A stretch of DNA of 64,000 nucleotides from assembly GCA_016931715.1 (NCBI GenBank), contig JAFGEF010000168.1, positions 1 through 64,000 of the forward strand, in the 5' to 3' direction. Position numbers and translations under genes: made by a program. The stretch is from Sedimentisphaerales bacterium (GTDB lineage: Bacteria; Planctomycetota; Phycisphaerae; Sedimentisphaerales; Anaerobacaceae). The notes under the pieces are model-generated. The model did no database searches and was not told the origin of the DNA. It saw nothing but the letters and a program-made list of their open reading frames with translations. How positions within the stretch are numbered: the first letter of the stretch is position 1; the number at the start of each line of letters is the position of its first letter. Shown one piece after another: positions 4,392 through 30,265 of the stretch.

Positions 4392-6358
4392 TCTGCACTC
4401 GCTGATATTGTTATTGAAGTTCTGACTTCAGTTGGATAATAATTCCCCGGTTCACGAGCATCGTTCCAGGGTGAGTTATACATAATCCCAAAAATATCAT
4501 AAGTCCCTGGTCCAACGAGATAACCATCATCATTTATCATATCCCAACTGTGAAAAATTACATCTGATTCTCCTGCAGAAAGTTCAATTACGGGCATATC
4601 CCATGTAGTACCCTGCACTTTGGACCATATTTCTATGACATCCTTTTTAACTTTAAGATTTAAATAAGCACCTTGCGAACAATGGATATATACAGTTTCG
4701 TTATTTAGATTAGTAACAGAAAAATCCATCTGTACACTTTCACCTTGCTTGTAGAATGTTTTATCAGTCTGTACACGAAATTCCACACCATTTATAATTT
4801 CCGAGCCGGGATTATTTTCTTCGAGCCAGTGTGAGAGCATAATCAGCATATCGTTAATATCTACTCTGCAATCGCCATTGATATCACCTGCGACTATTGT
4901 TTCGCATACAGGTTTTCCAAAATATGATTTGCTTGCCTCTGTTGTTCCGCCGTAAGCGCCCATATTTATATAGCCGCCGTTGGGGAATGGTTCTAATCTT
5001 ATTGGCGACATCGGGTCACCTGCATCTATACATGGGCTTGTATTATTATCTATCACCCAGCTTTGAGTATTTGAATCCCATCTTCCTGCCTGAGATTTTA
5101 AATGATAATCACCATTATTGGGATCAGTGAATAATGGCTCGGTATCAATATTCCCATCACACCAGACTAATTTTGTATTCGGGTCATAAATAGCCGCCAG
5201 ACCATTCTGAACATTGCTGTAACATACCTCTATTTTTGAGGCATTATTGTTCCATATCTCATCCTGGCCGCCGTTGTATAAAATAGAATTTCTTATTTTA
5301 AGGTCAGAGGAGGTAAAAATAGCTTTACCTTGTAACGCTGAGTTCCTGATAAAAGTTATGTTTTTTATTTCTATAGGGCTGTAATTTGATTCCATGTACA
5401 TAGCGCCGCCGTTATTCGTGGCCGAATTACCAACGAATAAAGAGCTTGTTAAACTGCTGTATTTTAAGTTATTATGTGAATATACTGCGCCCCCATCAGA
5501 AGCTGTATTGTTTTTGAAACTGCTATTTTCAATAATAATTTTGCCGTCTTCGTTGTGTATAGCGCCACCTTTATATTCAGCAAGATTATTCTCAAAAACA
5601 CAGTTGACCAGTTTTATTTCACCATTTTTATTATAAATGGCGCCCCCATTTGAAGACGAATTTGCCTTAAAAAGACAATTTATCACTGTTATTTGCCCAT
5701 TGTTTATTAAAATACCAGCTCCACTTGCTCCAAAGTTATTTAAAAAAGAGCAGTTGTAGATTTGAAGTTTGCCGGAACCCATTCTTATTCCACCACCAAA
5801 GCTAACACCACGACCTACAAAGAGAGTACCTCCTGCAATTTTAAAACCATCAAGTACGCTCAAGCTAACTGCTTGGTAAGCAGTAATAACACAATAACTA
5901 TTATCTTCTCTTGTCGGCTCATTTTCCAAGAAATTTGGGTCATTCACTTCTATGTCGTTTCCAGACAAATCACCTGAAAGAATTGTTACATATTTTTCAT
6001 AATCTCTTCGACTTTGATCAGGATCGAAAATACCTGCGTATCCTCCTGATAATATAACTCCGCTTGTGGTTTTGAAAGAAGCTTCCCTATCTCCGGCTGT
6101 GTGGCCTGCTCCCTTGTCGGGTTTATACGTTCCCTGTGCTACGCGGATTTCAACTGGTTTTTCTGCAAGATTTGCATCAGCTAAGGCATCCTGCAGGTAA
6201 ATATAGGCGTTTTGCCAGTTTGAGCCGTCATTAGCTCCGGATGCATCGTCATCGACGTAAATAATTTTGTTTGCTAAGGCAAAATTACCAAAGAAAAATA
6301 AAGAAAAGAAAAACATCGCTGATTTATAAGAAATTCCATGTTTTAACATATAAAACAC
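4385..6358 (-). CDS. exported parallel beta-helix protein with dockerin-like motif and BsuPI-like C-terminal domain
   Basis: 657 aa. It has a signal peptide (hydrophobic MFFFSLFFFGNFALA), then YVDDDASGANDGSNW, the usual start of planctomycete choice-of-anchor/Pmp-like beta-helix proteins. The helix region (about 60-460) has stacked repeats of the form GGAIYN..G.I.L.NCVFENN. Around residue 495, GDINGDCRVDINDMLIML is a dockerin-type calcium-binding loop. The last 130 residues (RVQTDKTFYKQGESVQMDFSVTNLNNETV...) resemble the BsuPI/intracellular proteinase inhibitor beta-sandwich. Probably a cell-surface or secreted adhesion or carbohydrate-binding protein; the exact substrate cannot be told. It is transcribed alone, upstream of and in the same direction as the subtilase. 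Confidence 0.8.
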   Translation of the reverse strand: MFYMLKHGISYKSAMFFFSLFFFGNFALANKIIYVDDDASGANDGSNWQNAYIYLQDALADANLAEKPVEIRVAQGTYKPDKGAGHTAGDREASFKTTSGVILSGGYAGIFDPDQSRRDYEKYVTILSGDLSGNDIEVNDPNFLENEPTREDNSYCVITAYQAVSLSVLDGFKIAGGTLFVGRGVSFGGGIRMGSGKLQIYNCSFLNNFGASGAGILINNGQITVINCLFKANSSSNGGAIYNKNGEIKLVNCVFENNLAEYKGGAIHNEDGKIIIENSSFKNNTASDGGAVYSHNNLKYSSLTSSLFVGNSATNNGGAMYMESNYSPIEIKNITFIRNSALQGKAIFTSSDLKIRNSILYNGGQDEIWNNNASKIEVCYSNVQNGLAAIYDPNTKLVWCDGNIDTEPLFTDPNNGDYHLKSQAGRWDSNTQSWVIDNNTSPCIDAGDPMSPIRLEPFPNGGYINMGAYGGTTEASKSYFGKPVCETIVAGDINGDCRVDINDMLIMLSHWLEENNPGSEIINGVEFRVQTDKTFYKQGESVQMDFSVTNLNNETVYIHCSQGAYLNLKVKKDVIEIWSKVQGTTWDMPVIELSAGESDVIFHSWDMINDDGYLVGPGTYDIFGIMYNSPWNDAREPGNYYPTEVRTSITISASAEP

Positions 6359-26903: not shown

Positions 26904-26911
26904 AAAAAATT
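26904..26911. repeat. left 8-bp target-site duplication
   Basis: AAAAAATT, repeated exactly at 30258-30265 on the other side of the transposon. Eight bases is the duplication length known for IS1595-family elements. Confidence 0.8.
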
Positions 26912-26934
26912 CGGAAGTATATACTTTACGCACA
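26912..26934. repeat. left terminal inverted repeat
   Basis: 23 bp starting CGGAAGTATATACTTTACGC, the exact reverse complement of 30235-30257. The inner AAGTATATACTT is itself palindromic. Confidence 0.88.
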
Positions 26935-26972
26935 GATAAATTGTGGTGTGATTTTTAAGGTAATCTTATTGG

Positions 26973-27128
26973 TTAAGAATCTTTAGCTTTATCCTTATCT
27001 GGCCATCCAGATTCAGGTTTCTTCCTTAAAATCGCCTTTTTTACTGCAATTTCCCAGTTTTCTTCATCAATTTTGAGGCTATCGGGCTTAGGGCCGGAGT
27101 TTTTATTCTTTTTTCCCTTGTTTTTCAT
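26973..27128 (-). CDS. small hypothetical protein (51 aa) in the transposon
   Basis: A Lys-rich 51-codon ORF (MKNKGKKNKNSGPKPDSLKI...) with a structured-looking centre, DEENWEIAVKKAILRKKP, and the ending GWPDKDKAKDS. It lies just inside the left repeat, transcribed outward. The EENWE.AVKKA..KKKP...GWP pattern looks protein-like. No function is known to me. Ribosome binding site weak. Confidence 0.5.
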   Translation of the reverse strand: MKNKGKKNKNSGPKPDSLKIDEENWEIAVKKAILRKKPESGWPDKDKAKDS

Positions 27129-27192
27129 TAGTATCACTTAGTGTTTAATAGTATTATGCTTTTAAAATAATTTCAAAAATATTAATTTTCCA

Positions 27193-27220
27193 TTGCGTTT
27201 GTCTTGTGTTCTTGTATAAT
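27193..27220 (+). promoter_or_regulatory. promoter for the coiled-coil/winged-helix gene
   Basis: TTGCGT (27193-27198), 16-nt spacer, TATAAT (27215-27220), followed by an AAAGG ribosome binding site at 27236-27240. Confidence 0.6.
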
Positions 27221-27248
27221 CAAGATAGGTTTAATAAAGGATATATCT

Positions 27249-27680
27249 ATGAACTTAAATGAATTAGTAAACTTAAAAGAAATAAAGATTAAACAACGCA
27301 ACGAAATGTTGCAATCGGTCGAACAAATTACCAAAGAGCTTGAGGCTTTAGATACTGTGTTATCTATGCTTCAAAAGACTGATGTTGGCATAAACATAAC
27401 ACCTATTCAACATCCTACTACTACAATAGAACAAAGTCAAGCAGAAGGATATGGCTCATTGACTAAAAATGTAAAAAGAGCTATTAGTCAATTTCCGGGA
27501 ATATGGGATAAAAATGATATAATGGCAAGCATCGGCAAAGTTGATGACGGTTCATTAGCTGGTTGCTTCAATCGGCTTATTAAACAGAGATACATTGAGA
27601 TAGTACAAAAGGGTAGCGGTAGAAGACCGGCTACATATCGAAAAATAAACAACGTTACAATATTTAATAAAAAGGAGTGA
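27249..27680 (+). CDS. coiled-coil/winged-helix-like hypothetical protein, transposon passenger
   Basis: 143 aa from ATG 27249, with AAAGG eight bases upstream; the frame is open from 27204 but that part has no support. Residues 1-45 form a charged amphipathic helix (LKEIKIKQRNEMLQSVEQITKELEALD). Residues about 72-135 look like a winged helix (LTKNVKRAISQFPGIWDKNDI...GSLAGCFNRLIKQRYIEIVQKG), ending in a typical wing (GRRPATYRKI). A DNA-binding role, perhaps regulating the element, is inference. It has its own promoter and a downstream hairpin. Confidence 0.65.
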   Translation: MNLNELVNLKEIKIKQRNEMLQSVEQITKELEALDTVLSMLQKTDVGINITPIQHPTTTIEQSQAEGYGSLTKNVKRAISQFPGIWDKNDIMASIGKVDDGSLAGCFNRLIKQRYIEIVQKGSGRRPATYRKINNVTIFNKKE

Positions 27681-27688
27681 TAAAAGAT

Positions 27689-27715
27689 AAGGGGTTTGCT
27701 ACCAACAAACCCCTT
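27689..27715 (+). terminator. hairpin after the winged-helix gene
   Basis: AAGGGGTTTG, 7-nt loop, CAAACCCCTT: a perfect 10-bp stem nine bases after the stop codon. No T-run follows, so it may terminate weakly or protect the 3' end. Confidence 0.5.
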
Positions 27716-27805
27716 ACTAATATTAGTATGGCACGGATGCTCATACACTTCAATTATTTATTACATATCTTACAGCCTCGGGCGCCACCACGTCAAGCGA
27801 AAAAA

Positions 27806-27851
27806 TGGCCTTGTAGGAAATTTCTGTACTCCCAGAGAGCCTACAAGGCCA
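27806..27851 (+). ncRNA. stable hairpin upstream of the tRNA gene, possibly a small RNA or terminator
   Basis: TGGCCTTGTAGG (27806-27817) pairs perfectly with CCTACAAGGCCA (27840-27851) around a 22-nt loop, followed by AAACTTTT and, 11 bases on, the tRNA gene. No ORF explains it. It could be a terminator, a processed leader of the tRNA, or a small structured RNA of the transposon. Confidence 0.4.
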
Positions 27852-27862
27852 AACTTTTAATT

Positions 27863-27946
27863 GCTCCGGTGATGAAACGGCAGACATATTACGCATGGAA
27901 CGTAATGGCATTTATTGCCTTCTGGGTTCGATTCCCAGCCGGAGCA
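27863..27946 (+). tRNA. class II tRNA-like gene, leucine-type body with apparent UGG anticodon
   Basis: 84 nt folding as a complete class II tRNA: acceptor GCTCCGG/CCGGAGC with A73, D-arm ATG...CAT with GG and GCAGA as in tRNA-Leu, anticodon stem TTACG/CGTAA, long variable arm GGCA/TGCC, and T-arm CTGGG TTCGATT CCCAG. The seven-base anticodon loop is CATGGAA, putting UGG (proline codons) at 34-36 and A instead of the near-universal U at 33. The body and discriminator suggest LeuRS recognition. CCA is not encoded, as in the other two tRNAs here. It is a transposon passenger and may be a decayed tRNA-Leu or a recoding tRNA. Confidence 0.6.
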
Positions 27947-28022
27947 TTGATTGCTGGTCATAAAGAACTACAGCAATCCAACGTGTTTAACAGTTCTGTT
28001 GCTTTATTTGAAAGGTTTTTGT

Positions 28023-28148
28023 ATGCAACAGCAACAAACCCCACAAGGCCATTGGGTCTATACTGCATATATTACACTCCGTAATGGAAAAGTAATATAT
28101 GCGGCTTCCTATGGCCTCAAAGCGTTTAGAATCTGGATTAAATCCTAA
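28023..28148 (+). CDS. 41-aa small protein, transposon passenger
   Basis: Starts at ATG 28023, with AAAGG seven bases upstream. The sequence reads MQQQQTPQGHWVYTAYITLR then NGKVIYAASYGLKAFRIWIK. The Trp/Tyr-rich beta-like pattern ending in a basic helix-like tail looks like a real small protein. It follows the tRNA by 76 bp and ends just before a terminator. Function unknown. Confidence 0.5.
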   Translation: MQQQQTPQGHWVYTAYITLRNGKVIYAASYGLKAFRIWIKS

Positions 28149-28160
28149 ATTCTGAACATT

Positions 28161-28200
28161 CTCCCAGTCGAGGCTTACCCCTTGACTGGGGGATATTTTT
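28161..28200 (+). terminator. terminator after the 41-aa ORF
   Basis: CCCAGTCGAGG, a 6-nt loop, CCTTGACTGGG, then GGATATTTTT: 10 of 11 stem pairs plus a T-run, 12 bp after the stop codon. It also faces the end of the convergent transposase gene. Confidence 0.65.
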
Positions 28201-28238
28201 ATATCGTCCAAATATTAACTTGTCAAACAACAATTCTA

Positions 28239-29219
28239 TTATGCTGTTTTTGAAATTGGTTCTTTATACATTAATCGTTTGCCGTCTGCACTTCTAATAG
28301 CCTTTTGAACACGCATACCATCGTCTATTTTACGGGCATTCCATCGAAAAGCAAACTCATTTATATAGCGGTGTAGATGTTTTTTGGAGACCGAGTGAAA
28401 AGTCCCATAAACGCCACGTTTCAGCAAAGCAAAGAAACTTTCTACAGTATTGGTGTTATCTTCGCCGCGAGTATATTCTTTTATTTTATGATTTACAATC
28501 CCATGACCGCCGTCAAATGGCTTGCCAATATTCCGATAAAGAGGAAAATCATCAGTATTAAGCCTTGACGATAATTCGACATTTTTTATTAATTCTTCTT
28601 TTAACGTTTCTACCGTTATTTTTTTCATTACTTTTGTTCTTACATTGCCATTTCTTTCGACAATGGCAAATACAGGTGTCTTTTTTGTTCCACGACCGAT
28701 TGAACGTTTAATGCCTTCAATTTTTGTCTGATGATGTCTGGGCTTGCCGCCTACATACGTTTCATCAGCTTCTACTGTTCCCTGTAATTTCTCTTTTTGT
28801 TTTGGCTCTGTCATTGCATAACGTATTCTGTGCATTAGGAATAAAGCACTTTTGTATGTAATGCTACATTCACGACTTATCTGTAATGCACTAATGCCTT
28901 TTTTAGAGGAACAGGCTTTCCAAAAGGCATAACACCATATTCTCAATGGAATACGTGAATCTTCAAAAACTGTTCCGATTCTTACTGTAAATTGTTTCTT
29001 ACATCCATGACAACGCCAAAGATAACGCTTATTTCTCTTTCCATCTTCACCCATCACTTTAACAACATCGGTATCGCCACAATGAGGACAAGCAGGAATT
29101 TCACCCCATCTTTGCTTTTCCATAAATTCTGTTGCGGCTGTTTCGTCTATACAGGCTAATGGGATTTCTTTTAATACTTCGTTATCTGTTTGACCGGGTT
29201 TTGTATTTTTCTTTTTCAT
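28239..29219 (-). CDS. IS1595 family transposase (ISXO2-like)
   Basis: 326 aa, apparently intact. The N-terminal zinc ribbon is CPHCG...CHGCKKQF (about 45-80) with the family helix IPLRIWCYAFWKACSSKKGISALQISRE. The ISXO2-like DDE domain follows: first Asp in VEADETYVGG, second in RLNTDDFPLY, then the motif NTVESFFALLKRGVYGTFHSVSKKHLHRYINEFAFRWN split by its conserved residues. It catalyses movement of the surrounding element. It is transcribed opposite to most of the cargo, from a promoter that contains a copy of the terminal-repeat core. Confidence 0.93.
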   Translation of the reverse strand: MKKKNTKPGQTDNEVLKEIPLACIDETAATEFMEKQRWGEIPACPHCGDTDVVKVMGEDGKRNKRYLWRCHGCKKQFTVRIGTVFEDSRIPLRIWCYAFWKACSSKKGISALQISRECSITYKSALFLMHRIRYAMTEPKQKEKLQGTVEADETYVGGKPRHHQTKIEGIKRSIGRGTKKTPVFAIVERNGNVRTKVMKKITVETLKEELIKNVELSSRLNTDDFPLYRNIGKPFDGGHGIVNHKIKEYTRGEDNTNTVESFFALLKRGVYGTFHSVSKKHLHRYINEFAFRWNARKIDDGMRVQKAIRSADGKRLMYKEPISKTA

Positions 29220-29230
29220 AATATACTAAT

Positions 29231-29257
29231 TTTATACTTGACGCACAGAATTATCAA
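29231..29257 (-). promoter_or_regulatory. transposase promoter overlapping an internal terminal-repeat-like site
   Basis: On the minus strand TTGATA (29257-29252), 15 nt, TATAAA (29236-29231). The plus-strand stretch 29233-29249, TATACTTGACGCACAGA, matches the inner terminal repeat and adjacent bases at 26920-26936 at 16 of 17 positions, so the transposase may bind its own promoter. Confidence 0.5.
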
Positions 29258-29411
29258 GAAGAAAATAAAGATTTTTTGGATAAATTTGCATATTTTTGCA
29301 CTTTTTTTTGGTTATTCTAAAAAGTATGAACATTTTTAGAAAAAATTTAGTAAATTTTCTTGGCAAGAGTTAATTTGGTCGATATTTTATAGTTGCCGTT
29401 GCGTATTTTAC

Positions 29412-29440
29412 TTGCCGTTTGAAAGCAAATATGATATATT
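29412..29440 (+). promoter_or_regulatory. promoter for the DUF5678-like/protease pair
   Basis: TTGCCG (29412-29417), 17-nt spacer, TATATT (29435-29440), 55 bp upstream of the ATG at 29496. Confidence 0.45.
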
Positions 29441-29495
29441 ATATCTGGTGAATAACATGAAATGTATCACCTTTTTTTAGTGTGGAGCGTCTTTT

Positions 29496-29699
29496 ATGTC
29501 TAAAACGAAAAGCAAAAAAGATAATATCTGTAAAAGTTCCGAGTCTTCTTATGTTGCCTTCGACCCTGTAAAAGGAAGTTCAGATATTATTGCTTGTGAT
29601 TCCAATGTCGGTAAAGTAATTGATTTGGCTCGGAAACAAGGTATTGATGTTCCTGCTATTATGTTTGTTCCAGAAGAAGGGGTAACATACATATATTAA
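29496..29699 (+). CDS. DUF5678-like small protein, transposon passenger
   Basis: 67 aa. After a charged N-terminus, residues 20-67 read YVAFDPVKGSSDIIACDSNV then GKVIDLARKQGIDVPAIMFV and PEEG..YIY. This is the beta-beta-alpha-beta pattern of DUF5678-type small proteins (aDG.VIA.G.d..ev...A...G...P.v.FVP). Ribosome binding site GGAG. It is followed by the protease gene after 7 bp, clearly co-transcribed. A partner or antitoxin-like role next to the protease is speculation. Confidence 0.65.
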   Translation: MSKTKSKKDNICKSSESSYVAFDPVKGSSDIIACDSNVGKVIDLARKQGIDVPAIMFVPEEGVTYIY

Positions 29700-29706
29700 A
29701 TGAACG

Positions 29707-30210
29707 ATGCCTATTCAAGAATACCCATTTCTTTTACCAACAAAAGAAGGGATTAAAATAAGATGCCCTAATTCTTTACCGATGCTCTGGATTAGGGTTA
29801 TTAATCCTGCCAATAAAATTGCTGTTGTAGTCCCCGCTTTAATAGATACTGGTGCTATTAGTTGTGCTTTTCCCGCAAGCTGTGCCTCTAAACTTGGGCA
29901 TGATTTACGTTCAGTTCCTCATAAAAAAATTATAACAGGGAATGGTGTTACTTGTGCTTTTCCACATACATCAATAGTCCAAATATTAAATATTAAACCA
30001 GATGGAAATCCTGATATAACAAAAATTTTATTTACAATAAACGAGCAATTAATAGATTACACTGAAGGATTGGATGCTTTTTTGTTAGGCCAACAAAATT
30101 TTCTTGATAAATTTATATTAAGCATTAATTATCCACAAAAAAAATTATCTGTCCGTTACCCTCACTCACCAATAGAGAAAAAAATAAAAATCAAAAAAAG
30201 AAGGCACTAA
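29707..30210 (+). CDS. retropepsin-like aspartic protease domain protein, transposon passenger
   Basis: 167 aa. The catalytic loop PALIDTGAISCAFPASCASKLG (Asp-Thr-Gly-Ala, about residue 47) is followed by the flap/strand region and LGQQNFLDKFILSINYPQKKLSVRY, equivalent to the LLG.dFL..f...id.....l.i motif of clan AA aspartic proteases. Bacterial one-domain retropepsin-like proteins are predicted to work as homodimers. The C-terminus is very basic (KKIKIKKRR). The substrate is unknown. It sits with the DUF5678-like gene just inside the right terminal repeat. Confidence 0.75.
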   Translation: MPIQEYPFLLPTKEGIKIRCPNSLPMLWIRVINPANKIAVVVPALIDTGAISCAFPASCASKLGHDLRSVPHKKIITGNGVTCAFPHTSIVQILNIKPDGNPDITKILFTINEQLIDYTEGLDAFLLGQQNFLDKFILSINYPQKKLSVRYPHSPIEKKIKIKKRRH

Positions 30211-30234
30211 ATTAATATAATTATTCCCAATTTT

Positions 30235-30257
30235 TGTGCGTAAAGTATATACTTCCG
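30235..30257. repeat. right terminal inverted repeat
   Basis: 23 bp, exact reverse complement of 26912-26934. Confidence 0.88.
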
Positions 30258-30265
30258 AAAAAATT
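30258..30265. repeat. right 8-bp target-site duplication
   Basis: AAAAAATT, identical to 26904-26911. Confidence 0.8.

Follow-up and report, generated by a model that had tools for sequence, protein, structure and literature searches.

The window analysed here is a stretch of 64,000 nt, in which positions 26904-30265 are occupied by one IS1595-family element together with its flanking target-site duplications. The element proper is 3,346 bp long (26912-30257). Its terminal inverted repeats, at 26912-26934 on the plus strand (CGGAAGTATATACTTTACGCACA, with related ends across its clade) and at 30235-30257 on the minus strand, match at 23 of 23 bp, or over 25 bp if the symmetrical TT/AA of the duplication is included, and the octamer AAAAAATT is present on both sides, at 26904-26911 and 30258-30265. 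In AT-rich DNA an 8-bp duplication alone is weak evidence; here, however, the transposase group includes 27 other bounded elements, nearly all from other genomes, with 8/8 duplications beside matching ends, which puts the match far beyond chance. A sequence-only reading of this DNA had proposed an IS1595-family element with perfect 23-bp ends and an 8-bp duplication, and these results bear it out. The element is present as a single copy in the source genome.

The element is bordered by a TetR-type gene on one side and a tRNA-Thr/tuf region on the other. In G001, from the same genus, the tRNA-Thr/tuf locus lacks the element and DNA can be aligned across the joined flanks, although on the left side over only about 15 bp; given so short a left flank, the locus does little more than hint at an empty site. 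The element had been called freshly inserted, which is plausible because its ends and duplication are perfect, with partial support from the G001 locus.

Reading from the left, the element contains a gene for a small protein, P0005 (26973-27137, minus strand; 54 aa from a GTG start or 51 aa from ATG); a gene for P0001, a 143-aa protein (27249-27680, plus strand); a leader (27718-27862, plus strand) that leads into a class II tRNA gene (27863-27946, plus strand); a 41-aa ORF (28023-28148, plus strand); a terminator-like hairpin with a T run (28160-28193, plus strand); the transposase gene (28239-29219, minus strand); and adjacent genes for P0003 (67 aa; 29496-29699, plus strand) and P0004 (167 aa; 29707-30210, plus strand). 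All five non-transposase ORFs and the tRNA previously reported as cargo are thus present. The transposase, which had been described as intact, is so: its 326 residues match PF12762 (DDE_Tnp_IS1595; E = 1.1e-39), the N-terminal Zn ribbon PF12760 (E = 1.2e-9) and NCBIfam NF033547 (E = 5e-57; 193 bits against a cut-off of 75).

We sought relatives with the transposase in 84,980 genomes, supplemented by whole-genome and viral-contig searches, and recovered about fifty close ones. In a tree of 51 rows the relatives form a single clade with full support (100/100), which spans at least six phyla: Planctomycetota, Acidobacteriota, Gemmatimonadota, Pseudomonadota, Myxococcota and Eiseniibacteriota. Members have in common ends of the form CGGAAGTATGTACTT(t/g)(a)CGCAA or a near variant, 8-bp duplications, exact at 8/8 for 28 bounded elements when that of the window is counted, and a protein of about 45 aa described below. 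A tRNA with a leucine-type body and a mismatched anticodon is carried by about 36 members; some others have no tRNA, yet retain the transposase and the small protein. No related transposase scored above threshold in the phages searched, and the plasmids yielded one distant transposase match, with no tRNA found in its region. As in the IS1595 family at large, these elements combine a DDE transposase bearing an N-terminal Zn ribbon with an 8-bp duplication, short inverted repeats and passenger ORFs; they differ in their CGGAAGTATGTACTT-type ends, their clade-wide GPxP...GWP protein and their tRNA passenger. In the literature searched, which lay mostly outside subscription papers, we found no description of an IS1595 element with a tRNA. 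The clade is widespread and apparently undescribed.

Not all of the cargo behaves alike. The sequence-only reading had treated it as one unexplained set, and this held only in part: the small protein is clade-wide and the gene and tRNA that follow it are a recurrent pair, whereas the remaining ORFs are seemingly private. By profile search, a protein of about 45 aa with the consensus GPxPxxLxIxGDWxxAVkkALxKKxPxxGWP, represented in the window by P0005, was found in nearly every clade member, whether or not a tRNA was present; among clear comparator transposons from outside the clade, only L220 gave a match, and a marginal one. This distribution makes it a clade-wide hallmark. The 41-aa ORF had no relative in 98 related genomes. 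P0003 is DUF5678-like (a profile match below cut-off) and P0004 retropepsin-like, with a DTGA motif and a match to gag-asp_proteas just below cut-off (E = 1.9e-5). A search of 149 other genomes gave P0004 a single weak relative, and on that basis this pair, like the 41-aa ORF, looks like private cargo of the window element. Other passengers differ from element to element, with a SocA/Panacea protein in L005, an NYN protein in L042, a PIN-like/DUF433 combination in L041 and a Panacea protein in L050, and several of these variable passengers are toxin-antitoxin-like in character. By eye, the N-termini of passenger ORFs in L039 (829-1548), L040 (6692-7369), L046 and L053 resemble proteasome/Ntn hydrolases (e.g. 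TLVAAFRARENGILLCADRE); two of these were scanned and neither matches any Pfam family.

The tRNA gene joins a leucine-type body to the anticodon UGG (27896-27898) and does not encode CCA, as judged from ARAGORN, a covariance model and identity positions. It had been recognized as a class II tRNA, which is correct; its anticodon had been left unread, and the union of a leucine body with a proline anticodon sets it apart from ordinary class II tRNAs. Such genes are easily overlooked: ARAGORN labels the window copy Pro(UGG), and the Rfam tRNA model left it unreported at E ≤ 1, in the genome scan as well. Further copies, some of them with very long variable arms, were found by means of a covariance model based on 15 of the element tRNAs. 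Among 38 tRNAs from 38 distinct elements, the anticodon is UGG in 33 (read with an 8-nt loop in L041), UGC in 2 (ambiguous in one, L211) and GGG, AGG and UUA in 1 each, and a clear leucine anticodon was found in 0/38. With UGG predominating in this way, these are not ordinary tRNA-Leu genes.

The amino acid with which such a tRNA would be charged can be predicted from its identity positions. E. coli LeuRS requires A73, A15-U48 and G18G19 together with tertiary contacts between the loops, and has no need of the anticodon; ProRS requires G72, A73, G35, G36 and G15-C48; and C2-G71 acts against SerRS as an antideterminant (PMC9976931). The window tRNA has a leucine-type D arm and the tRNA-Leu set (A73, A14, A15-U48, G18G19 and the T-loop tertiary bases), and it lacks the G72 and G15-C48 of tRNA-Pro, having G1-C72 and A15-U48 instead. 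Across the 38 tRNAs, leucine identity positions are nearly invariant (A14 in 38, A73 and A15-U48 in 37 each, C2-G71 in 33). From these positions we infer that the tRNAs would be charged with leucine while reading CCN proline codons. Charging with proline through G35, G36 and A73 would instead make them ordinary helpers that add proline-reading capacity. The UGG anticodon and A73 do belong to the bacterial proline identity set (PMC9976931), but G72 is present in just 5/38 and G15-C48 in just 1/38, against A15-U48 in 37/38, and UGC and UUA variants occur, so that we regard proline charging as unlikely.

The cloverleaf is under selection, with heavy compensatory change. In the aligned element tRNAs 95.8% of cells are paired, double-sided changes occur in 23 of 25 pairs, and covariation is 0.74 versus 0.18 after shuffling. 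The gene lies inside exact terminal-repeat and duplication bounds in 24 elements, and tRNA distances follow transposase distances (Mantel r = 0.36; 0/2000 permutations): tRNA and transposase are co-inherited. As an unbiased check, we scanned 298 genomes of the class with a pattern in which a YTTGGR anticodon loop comes after a leucine body. Being strict, this pattern passes over many members and thus gauges specificity rather than frequency. It matched in 4 of the 298 and never in the reversed control. All four loci lie beside a clade transposase (L005, L199, L202 and a new one in G245, where the transposase matched at 4.7e-55 and the small protein at 2.5e-16), and no match for the leucine-body/UGG combination was found outside clade elements in these genomes.

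These data bear on the possibility of chance capture, in which the element would hold a former host tRNA gene that has no function and is decaying. A33 in the window copy, the degenerate copy in L049 and the few members that lack a tRNA are what decay would produce; compensatory changes throughout the cloverleaf, UGG in 33/38 without one clear leucine anticodon, a body/anticodon combination unmatched elsewhere in the 298 genomes and co-inheritance with the transposase are not. We consider this account very improbable, and at the level of the family ordinary host capture is rejected on anticodon conservation and the 298-genome scan, while it may hold for single copies.

The same pattern gave 20 matches in viral contigs. 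Seven are near an IS1595 transposase, two of these beside only a short remnant and seemingly copies of one locus, and one further match has the small protein only. Several matches lie elsewhere: L250 and L251 adjoin a coil/winged-helix-type gene, and UGG tRNAs such as L249 and L266 have neither IS1595 sequences nor a clear partner.

Close linkage of tRNA and transposase, and the abundance of conserved prolines in the small protein, raise the idea that the tRNA serves the element's own genes, with CCN standing for leucine in the transposase or the small protein. No such signal was seen. The P/L share of proline mismatches is 2.3% in clade transposases versus 4.0% in comparators, and the choice of proline codons in the small protein is independent of the anticodon. 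These comparisons largely refute such recoding by the element, to which we give hardly any credence.

The element tRNAs may, alternatively, act outside translation, as a processed structural or regulatory transposon RNA (a stable 3′ end, a transcription barrier or a protein-binding RNA) whose anticodon is read by a partner other than the ribosome. U33 is retained in 28/38 tRNAs and missing in 10/38, and its absence argues for weak decoding by those copies, including that of the window, where A33 probably weakens decoding. The failure of the Rfam tRNA model to report the window copy, the irregular T-armed RNAs found in tandem in several elements, and the observation that some soil-bacterial allo-tRNAs are not chargeable by E. 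coli enzymes (PMC7609411) point in the same direction. The near-invariance of the tertiary and LeuRS identity bases and of A73 does not, nor does variation of the anticodon within the proline box (UGG, GGG, AGG), as would be expected if codons are read. We hold a role outside translation to be possible, though doubtful.

In about half of the elements, the ORF that immediately precedes the tRNA and shares its strand encodes a protein of about 125-200 aa with a variable or coiled N-terminal part. P0001, which occupies this position in the window, had been read as a coiled-coil/winged-helix protein; its AlphaFold model (mean pLDDT 71) has a helix of 42 residues (3-44) followed by the order of elements of a winged helix, its Foldseek matches to winged-helix regulators are weak (best E 0.013), and position and architecture are the same in relatives. 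A weak sequence link connects it to family A (hhalign probability 30%). Searching the relatives for P0001 itself found nothing, though the same search missed its homologues in G017 and G327 and is thus of low sensitivity. Many of the upstream proteins group into small homologous families, and three have a marginal Pfam match to HARE-HTH; from such marginal profile matches and the one model, they look as though they share a C-terminal winged helix. About 15 tRNA-bearing elements have no clear upstream partner ORF. L005 and L197, the nearest elements to that of the window, share with it the ends, small protein, winged-helix-type gene, tRNA and transposase, so that elements uniting these ends with this cargo, on whose existence the sequence-only reading had staked its case, do occur. 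Conserved patches and hairpins, with one hairpin at 27807-27850 in the window, recur in the leader between partner gene and tRNA in all three, and the window leader has no Rfam match.

Four elements have a different gene at this position. In L149, L199, L202 and L210, a protein of the RmrA type, comprising an XRE domain and an M78 protease, is encoded 6-32 nt before the tRNA; those of L149 and L199 match RmrA in PADLOC (E down to 1.7e-91), and those of L202 and L210 are homologous to them by similarity. RmrA is the antitoxin of RosmerTA and pairs with diverse toxins (PMC10440598). The four elements resemble RosmerTA in having an RmrA-type gene directly before the tRNA; they differ in that L149 and L210 have the tRNA gene as its neighbour and no protein toxin was found beside it. 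In L199 and L202, where an extra ORF comes before RmrA, the toxin paired with RmrA is not necessarily the tRNA. RmrA is absent from the window element, which has a winged-helix-type protein in its place. Winged-helix-type gene and tRNA are a recurrent pair, and the tRNA is repeatedly placed behind winged-helix or RmrA-type genes. As a separate observation, ORFs upstream of a UGG tRNA in L275 (G245) and L272 (1568-2659, minus strand) resemble, by eye, a toxin-antitoxin-like pair of HigB/RelE and XRE types.

Direct computation covers the mobile unit with its ends, the tRNA, its anticodon and the small protein as conserved features of the clade, the selection acting on the cloverleaf, and the tRNA's co-inheritance with the transposase and placement behind partner genes. 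The explanation that we favour, with moderate confidence, is a mobile module in which a leucine-charged tRNA misreads proline codons under the control of an upstream regulator or antitoxin. In the host, the tRNA would be transcribed and then leucylated by the cell's own LeuRS, an enzyme indifferent to the anticodon; the product would be read on CCN codons in competition with tRNA-Pro, placing leucine at proline positions. Less certainly, the upstream protein may hold a toxic or stress-inducing tRNA at a low level, loss of this control might lead to proteome-wide mistranslation, and mistranslation might serve as an addiction or defence device that aids persistence of the element.

A designed tRNA-Ser(UGG) is toxic in yeast through mistranslation (PMC6827378), so an uncontrolled copy of the element tRNA should be costly. 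Such a cost would fit, without proving, a role for the regulator or antitoxin homologue that recurs upstream. Both tRNAs have a class II body with a UGG anticodon for proline codons; the yeast tRNA is synthetic with serine identity, and the element tRNA is natural and mobile, with a predicted leucine identity. We entertain more tentatively a broader proposal, in which the tRNA would be the toxic effector of a new toxin-antitoxin or abortive-infection class that converts proline codons to leucine, with interchangeable restrainers (winged-helix proteins and RmrA-type proteases) and IS1595 transposons as its main carrier.

The closest natural parallels are allo-tRNAs, class II tRNAs of soil bacteria, Acidobacteria included, whose body and anticodon point to different amino acids (Mukai et al. 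2017, as cited in PMC7609411). They are of serine-type identity, with a wide range of anticodons and with acceptor branches of the 8/4 or 9/3 kind, and a link to transposons or toxin-antitoxin systems has been put forward as a hypothesis only (PMC7609411). The element tRNAs share with allo-tRNAs, and with missense and nonsense suppressor tRNAs, the class II form and the disagreement of body and anticodon. They differ from allo-tRNAs in their canonical 7/5 branch (a 7-bp acceptor stem and a 5-bp T stem in the aligned members, instead of 8/4 or 9/3), their leucine identity, a single dominant anticodon and their demonstrated location inside bounded transposons. If our favoured explanation is true, a conserved, mobile tRNA with a body/anticodon conflict in at least six phyla would be natural evidence for selected, transferable sense-codon mistranslation, and the idea of misreading tRNAs as toxins, defence factors or regulators of transposition becomes directly testable.

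Several elements contain further tRNA-like sequences. Irregular ones, in which T arm and acceptor stem are good and a normal D arm is lacking, occur in tandem with the main tRNA or in its place in L051 (4204-4275), L052 (4625-4690), L035 (6364-6435), L206 (6023-6093) and the L152 element, and resemble the polycistrons of irregular tRNAs that have been described in soil metatranscriptomes. The irregular piece in L206 adjoins a leucine-body tRNA (6097-6181, minus strand) whose anticodon, UUA, makes it a potential ochre suppressor. L220, a more distant IS1595 element with the duplication ATCTGCGA, carries another mismatch: a serine-body tRNA (G73; 4739-4823, plus strand) with the valine anticodon UAC. 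L037 and L058 each have a host tRNA-Leu(CAG) gene at a distance of about 1.6-2 kb.
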